In this document: positions 23,456-61,986 of the stretch, one piece after another
Layout: every line of letters starts with the position of its first letter
Numbering within the stretch: position 1 is the stretch's first letter
From: Fodinicola acaciae
Lineage (GTDB): Bacteria > Actinomycetota > Actinomycetes > Mycobacteriales > HKI-0501
Assembly (NCBI RefSeq): GCF_010993745.1
Contig: NZ_WOTN01000002.1
Location: 1,612,001 to 1,676,000, forward strand
Length of the DNA: 64,000 nucleotides
Direction: 5' to 3'
Program-made: the position numbers and the translations under genes
Notes under the pieces: generated by a model
The model's input: the letters and a program-made list of their open reading frames with translations, nothing else
The model's database searches: none
Told to the model about the DNA's origin: nothing

Positions 23456-23635
23456 CTACCGGCCGCGGAGCTGACCGACGAACGACGACCACGCCGTTGC
23501 GGAGAAGGACAGCGCCGCGCCATTCCGGTTCTTGCTGTCACGAACTCCGACGACCGATCCCGCTGTGCCGACCTCAACACACTCGGCCTGGCTGCCGCTG
23601 CGTGTGCTCTTGCGCCAGTTGCCGATCACCGTCAT
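23456..23635 (-). CDS. DUF397 small protein
   Basis: A 59-residue protein starting MTVIGNWRKSTRSGSQAECVEV and running through VGVRDSKNRNGAALSF to AWSSFVGQLRGR. WRKS, the Cys-Val-Glu-Val stretch, VRDSK and F-x-x-AW-x-x-F are the family hallmarks. DUF397 proteins are found in actinomycetes next to Scr1-like XRE regulators and are thought to act as small partners, in some cases like a toxin or an anti-regulator. The ATG overlaps the stop of the XRE gene (ATGA). Confidence 0.93.
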   Translation of the reverse strand: MTVIGNWRKSTRSGSQAECVEVGTAGSVVGVRDSKNRNGAALSFSATAWSSFVGQLRGR

Positions 23636-24519
23636 GTACCGACTCCCCTGATGAGATCGATGGTCTCCTGCTGGCTCAAGGATGCCTGATGCACGCGGTT
23701 GAATAGAACCTCGTAGCGCGTAATTTTTTCGCTTGCGGTGACGTGGAGCTCCTTGGTTTCGGTCTCGACCACCGCGACCTCAGGTGAGTTTCCGATGTCA
23801 AAAAGGTAGAAGGAGTTCAGCGGCGGAGCTGCATGCTTGACATCTGCGTTGAACGGCAGCACCCGCAGGTCGACGTTTGGAAGGCCGGCAACCTCGATGA
23901 GGTGCCGGAGTTGACCGGCCTGCACCTCGACCGGTGCTGTCCGGCGGCGGATGACGCTTTCGTCAAGCACAACGGCGTACGTCGTAGGGTCGCCCTCGCG
24001 GCTCAGGATCTTTTGCCGCTCTTGGCGGTTGACGATTGCTGAGCCGTCGTCTATTGGGAGCACTGCCTCGGTGTCGCGGAACCTGACTGCCATGTAGTCA
24101 GCAGTTTGGAGTAGGCCCGGGACGAACATCAGCGAGAAGACCCGCAGCCGCCTGGCGTCTGACTCCAGTTCGGCGAAGGCGGCTTGACGCTCGGGCATGC
24201 CGCTGGTTTTCCACCAGGCGCGGTCGTTGGCGTCGCGGGCCTGCTTGATGAAGACGTTGGCCTGCTGGGGCGGCACTTCCAGCGCGTCCATGATGTTCAT
24301 GACGAGCGCTACGTCAGGCGTGACCTCGCCGGTCTCCAGGCGCGAGATGCGCGTACCAGAGCAGCCGCACCGCTTGCCGAGCTCGATCTGCGACAACCCG
24401 GCGGCGACCCGGAGCATGCGCAGTTCGTCGCCGAACCTCAAACGGCCGAGTCGCAACGCATCACCTGAGTCCGCAAATTTGCGGTACCGCTTGCGATTCG
24501 ACCCTGCTTCGTTGCTCAT
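23632..24519 (-). CDS. Scr1-family XRE regulator (helix-turn-helix plus DUF5753)
   Basis: 295 residues. The helix-turn-helix is at about 29-85 (LRFGDELRMLRVAAGLSQIELGKRCGCSGTRISRLETGEVTPD). The DUF5753 domain follows (FSLMFVPGLLQTADYMAVRFR ... RQERQKILSREGDPTTYAVVLDESVIRRR ... LPNVDLRVLPFNADVKHA). It forms the typical operon with the DUF397 gene. The extra 30 N-terminal residues (NEAGSNRKRYRKFADSGDALRLG) may be a late start or a genuine extension. A perfect palindrome lies inside its first codons (24471-24484). Confidence 0.93.
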   Translation of the reverse strand: MSNEAGSNRKRYRKFADSGDALRLGRLRFGDELRMLRVAAGLSQIELGKRCGCSGTRISRLETGEVTPDVALVMNIMDALEVPPQQANVFIKQARDANDRAWWKTSGMPERQAAFAELESDARRLRVFSLMFVPGLLQTADYMAVRFRDTEAVLPIDDGSAIVNRQERQKILSREGDPTTYAVVLDESVIRRRTAPVEVQAGQLRHLIEVAGLPNVDLRVLPFNADVKHAAPPLNSFYLFDIGNSPEVAVVETETKELHVTASEKITRYEVLFNRVHQASLSQQETIDLIRGVGT

Positions 24520-24638
24520 CGCCTTCCCCGCTTATCTTCTGGTCCTGAAATTCGGTGGATACCGCCGCCAACATGGCAGAGATTCGCGGATTTCACAAAT
24601 ATGCGCCATACGGTTGAATCGACAGCGAAAATTTGCGC
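24471..24638. promoter_or_regulatory. Two related palindromes flanking a divergent junction
   Basis: CCGCAAATTTGCGG (24471-24484, perfect palindrome, within the first codons of the XRE gene) and GCGAAAATTTGCGC (24625-24638, just before the plus-strand ATP-grasp-like gene) share CG-n-AAATTTGCG. The junction is AT-rich for this genome. They could be operators for the XRE regulator; untested. Confidence 0.4.
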
Positions 24639-24661
24639 TTGCATCAGCGGAAGGAAGCGTT

Positions 24662-25420
24662 ATGAGCCTGGTTCTCGTCGTTGCAAAAGAGCCTTCCCGC
24701 GCGGCCATATGTGCCGAGTTGGCGGCTCGCGGTGTCGCGCATGCATTGCTGGAGATGTCGCGCCGACCGCTGGTGGAAGCGTGGCTCGACCGCAAGCCGA
24801 ATGGCGACGTCTCGGTCCGATGGGCCGGCTTTCTTCATACGGCCGGTGGCCGCATCGCTCTGGAGGATGTCACCGGCATCTACTGGGACGTTCCTTCGCG
24901 GATTGTCGACGACCCGATCGCGGGTGTGCTCGGTACGCTCGACTGCCAATGGGTCAACAATCCGGCGGCCGTCGCCGCGGACACGTGGCCGCGCCGTCAG
25001 GAACGGGGTGCCAGGCTCTTCCCGTCGGACCGGTTCCTGATAACTGACGACAAAGCCGCAGTGCGGCGGCTGAAGTGTCGCCCACGCAGCCGCCGCTACT
25101 TCTACACCGCGCCGCGGCTCTCCGAACGGGTGATTCACTTTTTCGTCGTCGGCAAGCGAGTCTTCTTGGTTGCGGTGTTCGAGGGCAGGGAGACGGTGTC
25201 CAAGGTGTCTGACAAGCTCGGTTTCACGCTGTCGGCATACGTGGCATTGGGCGGCCTCACCTACTCCGCGGTGACGTTCGGAATGGCCGACAATGGACGG
25301 TGGATCTATCTGGGATCCGACCCGACCGCCGACTGGACGTCGTACGCCGAGCGCCTCAACCTGCCGATCGCGGAGGCCATCGCCGACGAGCTGACACGTC
25401 CACAGAGTGGGACGAGTTGA
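24662..25420 (+). CDS. Degenerate ATP-grasp peptide-maturase-like protein
   Basis: 252 residues from the ATG at 24662 (GGAAGG upstream). The N-terminal third matches the pre-ATP-grasp domain of graspetide synthetases (LVLVVAKEPSRAAICAELAARGVAHALLEM ... FLHTAGGRIALEDVTGIYWDVPSR ... CQWVNNPAAVAADTWPRRQ). The ATP-grasp part is short. The usual nucleotide-binding Lys region is replaced by RRLKCRPRSRRYFYTAP. The expected E-x-NPNGQW metal-binding motif appears as LGSDPTADW, though the following LPIAEAIADEL tail is kept. Typical members have about 300-330 residues. No precursor gene is seen in the 142 bases upstream. A non-catalytic relative, or one with altered chemistry, seems likely. Confidence 0.75.
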   Translation: MSLVLVVAKEPSRAAICAELAARGVAHALLEMSRRPLVEAWLDRKPNGDVSVRWAGFLHTAGGRIALEDVTGIYWDVPSRIVDDPIAGVLGTLDCQWVNNPAAVAADTWPRRQERGARLFPSDRFLITDDKAAVRRLKCRPRSRRYFYTAPRLSERVIHFFVVGKRVFLVAVFEGRETVSKVSDKLGFTLSAYVALGGLTYSAVTFGMADNGRWIYLGSDPTADWTSYAERLNLPIAEAIADELTRPQSGTS

Positions 25421-25453
25421 CTCATGCGATGGGATAGTGCCAAGCTAGGCGGC

Positions 25454-25483
25454 GTGCAGGTGCAGATTCTCGTACTCCGCTAG
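25454..25483 (+). CDS. ilvB leader peptide (branched-chain attenuation)
   Basis: A nine-codon ORF, GTG start, reading M-Q-V-Q-I-L-V-L-R then TAG. Five of nine residues are Val, Ile or Leu, the amino acids whose synthesis the operon controls. It is immediately followed by a stem-loop and then a terminator before ilvB. Ribosome stalling at the Ile-Leu-Val-Leu codons when these charged tRNAs are scarce would favour read-through. Confidence 0.8.
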   Translation: MQVQILVLR

Positions 25484-25545
25484 CGCGTCGCCAGCTTCTC
25501 CAGGCGTCGCGCTCACCCCGGTTGCTTCGGCAAACGGGGTTTTTT
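25482..25545 (+). promoter_or_regulatory. Attenuator: pause stem and rho-independent terminator
   Basis: Pause/protector stem: AGCGCGTCGCC (25482-25492) and GGCGTCGCGCT (25503-25513), one mismatch. Terminator: CCCCGGTTGC (25516-25525), loop TTCG, GCAAACGGGG (25530-25539), then six T (25540-25545). The leader stop codon overlaps the base of the first stem, as expected for attenuation control. The terminator has one G-A mismatch. Confidence 0.85.
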
Positions 25546-25582
25546 GTTGTCCAGCTCAAACCTAGGGGTCAGGAAGAGAAAG

Positions 25583-27352
25583 ATGAGCTCTCCCGGTCAG
25601 GACGCCATAACCGGCGCGCAGTCGCTGGTCCGCTCGCTCGAAGCGGTTGGCGCCGACGTCGTATTCGGCATTCCCGGCGGGGCCATTCTCCCCGCGTACG
25701 ACCCGTTGCTGGACTCCACCGCCGTACGGCACGTGCTGGTCCGCCACGAGCAGGGCGCCGGTCACGCCGCCGAGGGGTATGCGCAGGCCACCGGCAAGGT
25801 GGGCGTGTGCATGGCGACGTCCGGGCCCGGGGCGACAAACCTGGTGACCCCGATCGCCGACGCGTACATGGACTCGGTGCCGATCGTGGCGATCACCGGC
25901 CAGGTGGCCAGCGGTTCGATCGGCACGGACGCCTTCCAGGAGGCGGACATCTGCGGCATCACCCAGCCGGTCACCAAGCACAACTTCCTGGTGCAGTCGG
26001 CCGAGGAGATCCCGCAGGCGATCGCCGAGGCGTTCCACCTCGCCAACACCGGCCGGCCCGGCCCCGTGCTGGTCGACCTGCCGAAAGACATCCTGCAGGC
26101 GCGTACGACCTTCCACTGGCCGCCGCACATCGACCTGCCCGGCTATCGGCCGACGCTGCATCCGCACGCGAAGCAGGTGCGCGAGGCCGCGCGGCTGCTG
26201 ACGACCGCCAAGAAGCCGGTGCTCTACATCGGCGGCGGCGTGCTGAAAGCGCGCGCCTCGACCGAGTTCCGCGTGCTCGCCGAGCTGACCGGCGTGCCGG
26301 TGGTCACGACATTGATGGCCCGCGGCGCGTTTCCGGACAGCCACAAGCAGCACCTCGGCATGCCCGGCATGCACGGCACGGTCGCCGCGGTCAGCGCGCT
26401 GCAGAAAGCCGACCTGATCGTGGCGCTCGGTACGCGCTTCGACGACCGCGTGACCGGCCAGCTGTCGAGTTTCGCGCCACACGCGACCGTCGTGCACGCC
26501 GACATCGACCCGGCGGAGATCTCCAAGAACCGGGTCGCCGACGTGCCGATCGTCGGTGACGCGCGTGAGGTGATCGCCGAGTTGGTGGTCGCGGTGCAGG
26601 CGGAGATCGACGCCGGCCATGTCGACCCCGACCGGCTGACCGACTGGTGGAAGCTGCTGGACCGTACGCGCAGGACCTACCCGCTGGGCTGGGAGGACCC
26701 GGCCGACGGCGCGCTGGCGCCGCAGCGGGTCATCAAGCGGATCGGCGAGATCGCCGGACCGGACGCGCTCTACGTCGCCGGCGTCGGTCAGCACCAGATG
26801 TGGGCCTCGCAGTTCATCTCGTACGAGAAGCCCAACACCTGGCTCAACTCCGGCGGCCTCGGCACGATGGGTTACGCGGTGCCGGCGGCGATGGGCGCCA
26901 AGGTCGGCCGGCCGGAGGCGACGGTGTGGGCCATCGACGGCGACGGCTGTTTCCAGATGACCAACCAGGAGCTGGCCACCTGCGCGCTGGAGGGCATCCC
27001 GATCAAGGTCGCGGTGATCAACAACGGCAACCTGGGCATGGTGCGGCAGTGGCAGACGCTGTTCTATGACCAGCGTTATTCCAACACCGACCTGAAAACG
27101 CACAAACACCGCGTGCCCGACTTCGTACGGCTGGCGGACGCACTCGGCTGCGTCGGCCTGCGCTGCGAGTCGGCCGACGACGTGGACTCGACCATCGAGA
27201 AGGCGATGGCGATCAACGACCAGCCGGTCGTGGTCGACTTCCTGGTCGGGCAGGACGCGATGGTGTGGCCGATGGTGCCGGCCGGTACGAGCAATGACGA
27301 GATCCTCGCCGCACGCGACCAGCGTCCGGTGTGGGGCCCGGACGACGTGTGA
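25583..27352 (+). CDS. ilvB: Acetolactate synthase large subunit
   Basis: Thiamine-diphosphate enzyme that makes acetolactate or acetohydroxybutyrate from pyruvate, the first common step of valine, leucine and isoleucine synthesis. 589 residues from the ATG at 25583 (AGGAAGAG upstream). The cofactor-activating Glu lies in [29 protein letters not shown]-type FAD-region motifs and the metal-ThDP motif [17 protein letters not shown] ... [13 protein letters not shown] are intact. First of ilvB-ilvN-ilvC, controlled by the upstream leader peptide and terminator. Confidence 0.97.
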
Positions 27353-27365
27353 GGACACTGGACCT

Positions 27366-27896
27366 ATGAGCAGGCACACACTTTCGGTCCTGGTGGAGAA
27401 CAAGCCAGGTGTCCTGGCCCGGGTTTCCGGCCTGTTCTCCCGCCGGGGCTTCAACATCGACTCGCTCGCGGTCGGTCCCACCGAGCATCCGGAGATCTCC
27501 CGGATGACGATCGTGGTGACCGTCGAGGAGTTTCCGCTGGAGCAGGTCACCAAGCAGCTCAACAAGCTTGTTAACGTCATAAAGATCGTGGAGCTGGATC
27601 CGTCCGCCTCGGTGCAGCGCGAGCTGATGCTGATCAAGGTGCGCGCGGAGCCGGCGACCCGGTCCCACGTACTGGAGACCGTGCAGCTGTTCCGCGCCAA
27701 GGTCGTCGACGTGTCCACCGACGCGGTGACGATCGAGGCAACGGGTACGCAGGACAAGCTGGACGCGCTGATCCGCGTCCTGGAGCCGTACGGGGTGAAG
27801 GAGCTGGTGCAGTCCGGCATGGTCGCGGTCGGCCGTGGCGCTCGGTCGATCACCGGGCCGGTCGTCGCGCTTCGCAGTGTCGAGCGACCCGCGTAG
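27366..27896 (+). CDS. ilvN: Acetolactate synthase small (regulatory) subunit
   Basis: 176 residues with an N-terminal ACT domain (HTLSVLVENKPGVLARVSGLFSRRGFNIDSLAVGPTE) that binds valine and mediates feedback inhibition, and a C-terminal domain that activates IlvB. Start ATG at 27366, 13 bases after the ilvB stop. Also named ilvH in many genomes. Confidence 0.96.
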   Translation: MSRHTLSVLVENKPGVLARVSGLFSRRGFNIDSLAVGPTEHPEISRMTIVVTVEEFPLEQVTKQLNKLVNVIKIVELDPSASVQRELMLIKVRAEPATRSHVLETVQLFRAKVVDVSTDAVTIEATGTQDKLDALIRVLEPYGVKELVQSGMVAVGRGARSITGPVVALRSVERPA

Positions 27897-27906
27897 TTCT
27901 CGTTGA

Positions 27907-28947
<1,041 letters not shown>

Positions 28948-60207: not shown

Positions 60208-61986
60208 ATGATGGCGCGAGAGTTCTCGACGGTCGGGGTGGTCGGCCTGGGCACGATGGGGGCCGGCATCGCCGAGGTGTTCGCGCGGGCCGGCCTGTCG
60301 GTGATCGGGGTCGAGGCCGACCAGGACGCCAAGGAGCACGGCCGCGAGATCCTCACCGCCTCGACCCAGCGCGCGGTCGACCGCGGCAAGCTGGAGGTCG
60401 CCGACCAGCAGGCGCTGCTCGGCCGCGTGTCGTACTCGACCAGCCTCTCCGACCTGGCCGACGTCGACCTGGTGGTCGAGGCGGTGCCCGAGCACCTGGA
60501 GCTCAAGCAGCAGATCTTCGCGCAGCTGGACAAGGTCTGCAACGACGACGTGATCCTGGCGACCAACACTTCTTCGTTGTCGGTCACCGAGATCTCGGTC
60601 GCCACCGGGCGGCCGAGCCGGGTCATCGGCATGCATTTCTTCAACCCCGCGCCGGTGATGAAGCTGATCGAGGTCGTACGCACCGTGGTCACCGACCAGC
60701 AGGTGGTCGACGACATCGAGAGTTTGGCGCGTACGCTCGGAAAAGTCGACGTGACGATCGGCGACAAGGCCGGTTTCATCGCCAACGCGCTGCTGTTCGG
60801 TTATCTCAACCACGCGGTCAGCTTCTACGAGTCCAAGTACGCCTCGCGCGAGGACATCGACGCGGCGATGAAGCTGGGCTGCGGCCTGCCGATGGGGCCG
60901 CTCGCGCTGATGGACCTGATCGGCGTCGACACGGCGTACGAAATCCTTGACACGATGTACAAACAGGGTCGTGACCGGTTGCACGCGCCGTCGCCGCTGA
61001 TCAAGCAGATGGTCACCGCCGGCCTGCTCGGCCGCAAGTCCGGCCGCGGTTTCTACACCTACGACAAGCCGGGCTCGCCGAAGGTCGTCGATGACCTGGA
61101 GACGCCGGACAACGGAAAAGCCAACGGCTCGGCCAAAAAGGTGGTTTCGGTCGGAGTCGTCGGCTCCGGCACGATGGCCTGCGGCATCGTCGAGGTCTTC
61201 GCGAAGGCCGGCTATGAGGTCACGTTTGTCACGCGTGCGGCGGAAAAGGTGGCCAAGGTCCGGTCCACTGTGGAGCGTTCGCTGGAAAAGGCCGTACAGC
61301 GCGGAAAACTCGACTCGGCAGACCGCGACGCGGCGCTGAAACGGCTGCACGGCTCGACCCGGCTGGACGATCTGTCCACTGTGGACCTGGTGGTCGAGGC
61401 GGTGGTCGAGGAGCTGGCCGTCAAGCAGGCACTTTTCGAGAACCTGGACGAAATCTGCAAGCCCGGCGCCGTACTCGCCACCACCACGTCGTCGTTGCCG
61501 GTGATCGAGTGCGCGCAGGCCACCAGCCGGCCGGCCGACGTGGTCGGCCTGCATTTCTTCAACCCCGCGCCGGTGATGAAGCTGGTCGAGGTGGTGCACA
61601 CCGTGTCGACGTCGCCGGAGACGCTGGCGACGGCGCGCACGGTCACCGAGCAGCTCGGCAAGCATCCGGTGGTCTGCCGCGACCGGTCCGGCTTCATCGT
61701 CAACGCGCTGCTTTTCCCGTATCTCAACGACGCGGTGAAAATGCTGGAGGCCAATTACGCCTCCGCCGACGACATCGACGCGGCCATGAAGGTCGGCTGC
61801 GGCTATCCGATGGGGCCGTTCGAGCTGCTGGACGTGGTCGGCCTGGACGTGTCGCTGGCCATCGAGCGCGAGCTCTACCTGGAGTTTCGCGAGCCCGGTT
61901 TCGCGCCGGCGCCGCTGCTGGAGCACCTGGTGACGGCCGGATATCTGGGTCGCAAGGCCGGTCGCGGTTTCCGCACCTACACGTGA
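60208..61986 (+). CDS. Tandem-duplicated 3-hydroxyacyl-CoA (hydroxybutyryl-CoA) dehydrogenase
   Basis: 592 residues made of two complete copies of the roughly 285-residue FadB2/Hbd-type enzyme. Copy 1: VGVVGLGTMGAGIAEVFARAG, NTSSLSVTEIS, MHFFNPAPVMKLIEVV, KAGFIANALLFGYLNHA. Copy 2 from about residue 310: VGVVGSGTMACGIVEVFAKAG, TTSSLPVIECA, LHFFNPAPVMKLVEVV, RSGFIVNALLFPYLNDA. The second GxGxxG motif carries Cys for Gly (GTMACG) and may bind NAD less well. The catalytic His in HFFNPAP is kept in both. A Lys/Gly/Ser-rich linker joins them. ATG at 60208 behind GGGAGGG. Confidence 0.93.
   Translation: MMAREFSTVGVVGLGTMGAGIAEVFARAGLSVIGVEADQDAKEHGREILTASTQRAVDRGKLEVADQQALLGRVSYSTSLSDLADVDLVVEAVPEHLELKQQIFAQLDKVCNDDVILATNTSSLSVTEISVATGRPSRVIGMHFFNPAPVMKLIEVVRTVVTDQQVVDDIESLARTLGKVDVTIGDKAGFIANALLFGYLNHAVSFYESKYASREDIDAAMKLGCGLPMGPLALMDLIGVDTAYEILDTMYKQGRDRLHAPSPLIKQMVTAGLLGRKSGRGFYTYDKPGSPKVVDDLETPDNGKANGSAKKVVSVGVVGSGTMACGIVEVFAKAGYEVTFVTRAAEKVAKVRSTVERSLEKAVQRGKLDSADRDAALKRLHGSTRLDDLSTVDLVVEAVVEELAVKQALFENLDEICKPGAVLATTTSSLPVIECAQATSRPADVVGLHFFNPAPVMKLVEVVHTVSTSPETLATARTVTEQLGKHPVVCRDRSGFIVNALLFPYLNDAVKMLEANYASADDIDAAMKVGCGYPMGPFELLDVVGLDVSLAIERELYLEFREPGFAPAPLLEHLVTAGYLGRKAGRGFRTYT

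Follow-up and report, generated by a model that had tools for sequence, protein, structure and literature searches.

A rare valine codon and two abutting hairpins in the ilvB leader of Fodinicola acaciae and its actinobacterial relatives

Leaders and terminators upstream of actinobacterial ilvB genes were described in 2005, in a paper that calls the mode of regulation unclear and some attenuator parts missing (PMC1262725). In Streptomyces lividans/coelicolor, the ilvBHC leader encodes the IlvL peptide MRTRILVLGKRVG and is reported to be leaderless (PMC8079986). The evidence from codon replacement differs between genera: a codon swap upstream of S. coelicolor ilvB is relayed, second-hand, as having had no effect (PMC1262725), a swap in Corynebacterium glutamicum is reported to have led to loss of the response (PMC11857589), and a swap in Mycobacterium tuberculosis led to loss of induction (PMC13236596).

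We analyzed the ilvB leader of Fodinicola acaciae (the host) within a 64,000-nucleotide stretch of its genome (the window), together with upstream regions from its relatives. A first-pass annotation of this DNA had proposed mutating the Ile-Leu-Val-Leu codons of the leader – an experiment that has been done by others in relatives, with conflicting outcomes (S. coelicolor versus C. glutamicum and M. tuberculosis). That codon swaps have given conflicting results between genera, on top of the unclear mode of regulation, is what makes the question of mechanism matter. The original S. coelicolor ilvB codon-swap study is reportedly Craster 1999.

The host ilvB leader is a member of the known family of actinobacterial ilvB leaders (Streptomyces, Mycobacterium, Corynebacterium). 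As in the IlvL family, a short open reading frame with Ile, Leu and Val codons precedes the ilvB operon, and an intrinsic terminator with a U-tract lies between the two.

The ilvB leader and its relatives

The elements of the locus are as follows.

25417 to 25422, plus strand: -35-like element TTGACT, from the sequence; relatives have a TTGA-type element
25441 to 25446, plus strand: -10-like element CAAGCT, 7 nt before the GTG
25454 to 25483, plus strand: leader peptide gene, from the sequence and relatives; GTG start at 25454-25456, peptide MQVQILVLR (nine residues), TAG at 25481-25483
25466 to 25477, plus strand: regulatory codons ATT CTC GTA CTC, of which GTA at 25472-25474 is the near-invariant one
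25482 to 25513, plus strand: hairpin H1, base AGCGCG/CGCGCT, overlapping the stop codon (the A of TAG opens H1)
25515 to 25540, plus strand: terminator hairpin T, TTCG loop, beginning 1 nt past H1
25540 to 25545, plus strand: U-tract of six T, from the sequence
25583 to 27352, plus strand: ilvB, acetolactate synthase large subunit, first gene of the operon, ATG at 25583 (NF005860, 1117 bits, cut-off 881)
27366 to 27896, plus strand: ilvN, acetolactate synthase small subunit, start codon picked from the profile match (NF008864, 236 bits, cut-off 119)
27922 to 28947, plus strand: ilvC, ketol-acid reductoisomerase (NF004017, 551 bits, cut-off 336)

The structural claims of the first-pass annotation were confirmed. 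The codons after the GTG read CAG GTG CAG ATT CTC GTA CTC CGC TAG, giving the nine-residue leader it described (Q-V-Q-I-L-V-L-R after the start) at 25454 with its TAG at 25481. The annotated ending inside a strong stem corresponds to the overlap of this TAG with the base of H1, in which 25482-25492 pairs with 25503-25513 through 10 pairs plus a U.U mismatch; the energy of H1 is -18.4 kcal/mol, which none of 200 shuffles equalled (z -4.56). The TTCG-loop terminator with six T, at 25515-25545 ahead of ilvB at 25583, has the sequence ACCCCGGTTGC-TTCG-GCAAACGGGGT and is the sole terminator-like site on the plus strand of 24900-26000. Folding of the whole leader gave -40.7 kcal/mol (z -3.86; 0 of 200 shuffles equally good), with H1 and T both present in the folded RNA.

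To place the leader among its relatives, we assembled 151 regions upstream of ilvB: the host, 80 named contigs, 30 genus, family and order loci, and 40 further order regions. The order sample comprised 143 relatives with a match, for 68 of which upstream DNA was taken. Four regions shorter than 250 nt (L006, L011, L024, L026) were dropped, and H1 followed by T was parsed in 145 of the remaining 147, the failures being L152 and L178. Collapsing nine groups of identical leaders to one entry each gave 136 distinct upstream regions. The start codon was not found by rule in 11 of these, and one more was dropped for a wrong start (L124), leaving 124 leaders. By ilvB, the closest named relatives are Frankiales MAGs and Micromonosporaceae (about 80-82%); the same-genus leader encodes MQVKILVLS-stop and a same-family one MQPMILVLA-stop.

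Covariation was evaluated in the 42 sequences with the stop at the H1 base (the host and 41 relatives). Both-side changes occurred at 10 of 17 modelled pairs – 5 of 9 in H1 and 5 of 5 in the upper stem of T – and 95.4% of cells were paired. None of 500 shuffles was as good, and slid controls were far lower. Given this covariation and these controls, H1 and T are very probably real and selected. A narrow covariance model, R1, matched 40 of 246 phylum genomes at E 0.01, a count that understates the spread because R1 misses all six f7 genomes listed as well as the cimA leader of the host itself (see below). One leader from outside the host's class, in a genome listed under the same phylum (L202, genome G158), encodes MQRVGILVVT-stop followed by H1 and T, with GTC where GUA is expected.

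We observed a similarly regular arrangement at the promoter. A TTGA-type -35 element is present 35-38 nt before the leader start in all 125 relatives with a rule-found start (search span 30-41 nt). Of 124 leaders, 117 (the host's included) carry a NANNNT element whose end lies 6 or 7 nt ahead of the start codon, compared with only 0-8 of 124 at each of the remaining spacings from 0 to 25 nt. These spacings suggest that the host leader is probably leaderless, with transcription starting at the GTG itself. The assignment leans on the relatives because the host -10 element is poor and was missed by a plain promoter scan; judged by promoter spacing alone, the host leader shares the leaderless start reported for IlvL of S. 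lividans (PMC8079986). Just upstream of the promoter, within 23632-25420, a Sco1979-type regulator gene on the minus strand (under the model cut-off) adjoins a plus-strand open reading frame whose end is weakly similar to ATP-grasp peptide maturases.

The leader codons differ sharply from those of the gene they precede. Using a parse that made no demand for GUA, we found GUA in frame in 123 of 124 leaders, the exception (L017) having GUC; within ilvB coding sequences from 80 loci, GUA makes up 31 of 3902 valine codons (0.8%). Likewise, AUU accounts for 45 of 97 isoleucine codons in leaders versus 52 of 2607 in ilvB genes, and CUU for 87 of 258 leucine codons versus 37 of 3307. Five host genes gave 12 of 227 for GUA and 3 of 95 for AUU – rare, but less so than in ilvB of the 80 loci. 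Near H1, Val and Leu codons are present in all 124 leaders and Ile codons in 82. Since GUA is near-invariant and Val and Leu occur in every leader while Ile occurs in only 82 of 124, the ilvB leader is, on codon usage, a sensor centred on the rare valine codon GUA. The earlier suggestion that the leader senses branched-chain amino acids thus stands as far as an attenuator is concerned, with 136 regions, covariation and codon bias behind it; an even sensing of isoleucine, leucine and valine does not. Earlier work on M. tuberculosis and C. glutamicum had recognized GUA as a control codon (PMC13236596, PMC11857589), and theory developed for E. coli holds that attenuators favour codons at which decoding responds most strongly to supply (PMC1183508).

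The end of the leader peptide is more variable than its regulatory codons. The stop lies at the H1 base (TAG, position -1) in the host and 41 other leaders, at -2 as TGA in 22 leaders, chiefly from Micromonosporaceae, and 8 to 17 nt into the H1 arm in 57 leaders, for example in Streptomyces (ILVLGKRVG-stop) and Pseudonocardiaceae (LVLPKRVDA-stop). The bases of the H1 arm are retained whichever stop position a leader has. Where Streptomyces has a CAG or AAG codon the host has TAG, hence its short peptide.

Sister leaders at cimA and leuS

The first-pass annotation reported no similar leaders at ilvD, leuB or ilvE. This holds for the 300 nt upstream of each of these window genes, which contain zero short open reading frames with three consecutive Ile, Leu or Val residues and zero terminator-like sites on the plus strand. 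It does not extend to the genome, as sister leaders precede cimA and leuS on other contigs. Separately, the window encodes at 60208-61986 (plus strand) a 592-residue protein with two tandem 3-hydroxyacyl-CoA dehydrogenase domains in a single chain.

A search of the host genome with R1 identified a second site, before leuS (host contig C1:555765-555826, plus strand; L201 / L184). The leader there, ATG GCG GCA TAC GGA CTG CTC CTT ACC TAG, encodes MAAYGLLLT-stop and is followed by a hairpin and a terminator. Its TAG is at the hairpin base and the hairpin abuts the terminator; in relatives the peptide continues to LLLTEPC-stop or LLLPGPR-stop. With an anchor present in 28 of 30 sampled loci (one having only 101 nt upstream), leuS leaders were found in 14 of the 28.

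The host citramalate synthase gene, cimA, is preceded by a leader encoding MHIGRLIIST-stop, then H1 and T (L204, contig C3 near 329703-329761, minus strand). When the host genome was scanned with a pattern for the H1-T layout, exactly two sites came up, at ilvB and cimA, although the reversed control pattern also gave five chance matches. By eye, a cimA leader is present in 22 of 30 order loci and absent in eight (L215, L217, L227, L228, L231, L233, L239, L241); H1 and T were seen in 21 of 34 upstream regions, in two of which (L235, L238) H1 is doubtful. A strict leader rule accepted 17 of 31 (the 30 order loci and the host); 15 of these 17 carry Ile codons and none carries GUA. On these sequences, codon identity follows the gene: Ile at cimA, Leu at leuS and mixed at ilvB. 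Our literature search, covering few subscription journals, found no description of a cimA leader; such leaders would extend the regulon to isoleucine supply.

Two leuA loci bear mention here. A leucine-rich leader resembling the LEU element, MRMAQLLLRCRGGA-stop, precedes host leuA (L207, contig C4 upstream of 233745); inspection by eye showed no terminator. In a genome listed under the same phylum (L203, genome G199), a leuA-type gene is preceded by MSQNLLLT-stop with the H1-T layout, unlike the host leuA leader.

Ribosome position and termination

The spacing of the leader elements is narrowly constrained. From the last GUA to H1 the distance is 7 nt in 88 leaders, 8 nt in 22, 10 nt in 11, and 2 and 9 nt once each (n=123). 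The gap between H1 and T is 0 nt in 100, 1 nt in 30 and 2 nt in 6 of the 136 distinct leaders, counts that take in a few rows whose parsed stretch is longer than H1 (L054, L113, L146, L168, L179). By comparison, the folded trp and thr leaders of E. coli have their nearest hairpin 11 nt and 17 nt from the terminator, respectively.

We modelled the ribosome as a mask, assumed to cover 12 nt. The median probability of the H1 base was 0.59 with GUA in the A site versus 0.00 with the ribosome at the stop, where it was below 0.1 in 121 of 123 leaders. In these computations, then, H1 stays mostly free while GUA occupies the A site, and its 5' arm is covered when the ribosome is at the stop; because of this difference H1 can, in the model, report ribosome position.

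These considerations lead us to a working model in which ilvBNC is controlled by a ribosome-dependent transcription attenuator with an added abutment step. Transcription would start at the GTG, as promoter spacing indicates, so that the ribosome would load at the extreme 5' end. When branched-chain amino acids are ample, and charged valyl-tRNA to read GUA in particular, the ribosome would reach the TAG and cover the 5' arm of H1; with that arm masked, as computed, T would form and transcription would end. When GUA is read slowly, the ribosome would halt just before H1, and H1 is computed to form. Formed H1, 1 nt from T, would then hinder closing of the T base within the RNA polymerase exit channel, allowing read-through into ilvBNC. 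In published work on two relatives, expression rises on stalling, so formed H1 should oppose termination, and the constancy of the abutment suggests that H1 and a closed T base cannot both fit at the polymerase exit. Protein factors that narrow or fill the polymerase exit channel are known, and by analogy we infer that an RNA hairpin could fill the channel as they do.

We hold the parts of this model with different confidence. That ribosome position governs attenuation at ilvBNC is very likely, whereas hindrance of T by formed H1 in the exit channel is a tentative proposal, and the model as a whole is our somewhat probable best explanation. Starvation or codon swaps in relatives act in the expected direction (PMC13236596, PMC11857589). 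Against the model, H1 and T can coexist, swaps in S. coelicolor are reported second-hand to have had no effect (PMC1262725), and stalling lowers rather than raises sequestration of the T 5' arm in 37 of 123 leaders, which taken alone is the wrong direction.

The alternative closest to textbook attenuation – an antiterminator that pairs with the T 5' arm when the ribosome stalls, as in the trp operon – has been put forward for M. tuberculosis and C. glutamicum (PMC13236596, PMC11857589). Those accounts give the antiterminator role to a hairpin lying close to where H1 is, one that overlaps T by three bases in C. glutamicum. We examined RNA ending before the T 3' arm and compared sequestration of the T 5' arm between a GUA stall and the stop, requiring a difference above 0.3; the test disregards pseudoknots and folding within the polymerase. 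The E. coli trp control behaved as it should, with the T 5' arm captured at 0.62 at the Trp codons and 0.01 at the stop, yet 0 of 123 ilvB leaders had sequestration higher by that margin on a GUA stall. In the 37 leaders mentioned above, it was lower by more than 0.3 (host, 0.10 versus 0.54). The parsed folds, in which H1 and T are separated by 0-2 nt and never overlap, also speak against trp-type pairing, which we consider unlikely here. The description of the host leader as a complete attenuator is therefore not supported, as a test that recovers the antiterminator of E. coli trp finds none here.

Two other analyses were set aside. A full-length equilibrium version of the mask test was discarded, as terminator probability was 1 at every codon, the E. 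coli trp leader included; among ilvB leaders the minimum fell below 0.5 in 5 of 124, a result as uninformative as that of the trp control. Pairing of CUCGU in the leader with ACGAG in the T 3' arm was rejected as an antiterminator because it needs codons that lie under the stalled ribosome; by eye, the match is also weaker in the host leader.

H1 might instead only pause RNA polymerase while a ribosome loads on the leaderless transcript, with no say in termination. A pausing role has been proposed for a leader hairpin in C. glutamicum (PMC11857589), and the distance of H1 from the T loop would suit a hairpin pause. A pause hairpin, however, would not need a gap of 0-2 nt to T in all 136 parsed leaders, and the decision on termination would still fall to a second element, for which the antiterminator test found no candidate. 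We regard this reading, too, as having little chance of being correct.

Improbable, in our assessment, is a fixed terminator that merely trims expression, with the leader codons irrelevant. The S. coelicolor swaps reported to be without effect (PMC1262725) would fit such an element, but GUA in 123 of 124 leaders against a background of 0.8% is hard to explain without decoding. So are Ile-only codons at cimA and Leu-rich codons at leuS: one H1-T layout whose codons are Ile, Leu or mixed according to the gene argues for decoding and against a fixed terminator.

A ligand-binding RNA, such as the ppGpp riboswitch found before some ilvB genes in other bacteria (PMC10272879) or an amino acid riboswitch, is highly improbable, as two plain hairpins with variable loops leave scant room for a pocket and an Rfam search of the window at curated scores gave 0 matches (the sole weak one, anti-hemB at 25476-25547, scored 20.3 bits against a cut-off of 49.5 and is taken as a chance likeness to a terminator).

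Returning to the abutment model, we entertain, as a rather doubtful extension, that a single reusable actinobacterial module precedes ilvB, cimA and leuS. In such a module H1 would never pair with T but would block it by flush abutment; the switch would be set by space rather than by competition between bases, and tuned by rare hungry codons – GUA (valine), AUU (isoleucine) and CUU (leucine), respectively. With so fixed a geometry (GUA, about 7 nt, H1, 0-2 nt, T), how actinobacterial ilvB leaders act becomes a directly testable question. Specialist attention is warranted for the cimA branch, for the lack of an antiterminator, and for the constancy of the abutment and of one single codon.

Comparison with known attenuators

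The E. coli trp attenuator resembles the host leader in that ribosome position probably decides termination in both. It differs in having a computable antiterminator and in the position of its nearest hairpin, 11 rather than 0-2 nt from the terminator. The host leader has regulatory codons for the product of its operon but lacks antiterminator pairing with the T 5' arm; we do not file it as classical trp type, yet it may work like one.

The Streptomyces leuS attenuators likewise combine a leader peptide, a hairpin and a terminator (PMC1262725; LeuL2, MRAVRLLLSEPR, in PMC8079986), and in the host the leuS leader (MAAYGLLLT) is laid out like the ilvB leader. Unlike the latter, the Streptomyces leuS attenuators carry Leu codons only.

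The C. glutamicum ilvBNC attenuator, or ilvB-II motif, shares Ile, Val and Leu codons and a terminator before ilvB, and its start codon, 1 nt from the transcription start, is a further likeness (PMC11857589, PMC10272879). Its peptide, usually of 15-17 residues, and its three overlapping hairpins set it apart from the host leader with nine residues and non-overlapping H1 and T. As the Corynebacterium ilvB-II class has an antiterminator overlapping T, the host leader, with its 1 nt gap, falls outside it.

The M. tuberculosis ilvB1 leader (LVVI codons) has GUA as a regulatory codon, a short open reading frame and a Rho-independent terminator, as does the host leader, and codon swaps there abolish induction by an acetolactate synthase inhibitor (PMC13236596). 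It is longer, and the same source proposes an antiterminator that excludes T, whereas none is predicted in the host.

By identity, the host ilvB leader is an ordinary member of its family, and it resembles IlvL of S. lividans/coelicolor in its ILVL core, its probable leaderless start, its hairpins and U-rich tract, and its operon. Where it departs from Streptomyces IlvL is in its stop at the H1 base (TAG for a CAG or AAG codon), which gives a peptide of nine rather than 13 residues; 13 of the 136 distinct ilvB leaders begin MRTRILVLG, as Streptomyces IlvL does.
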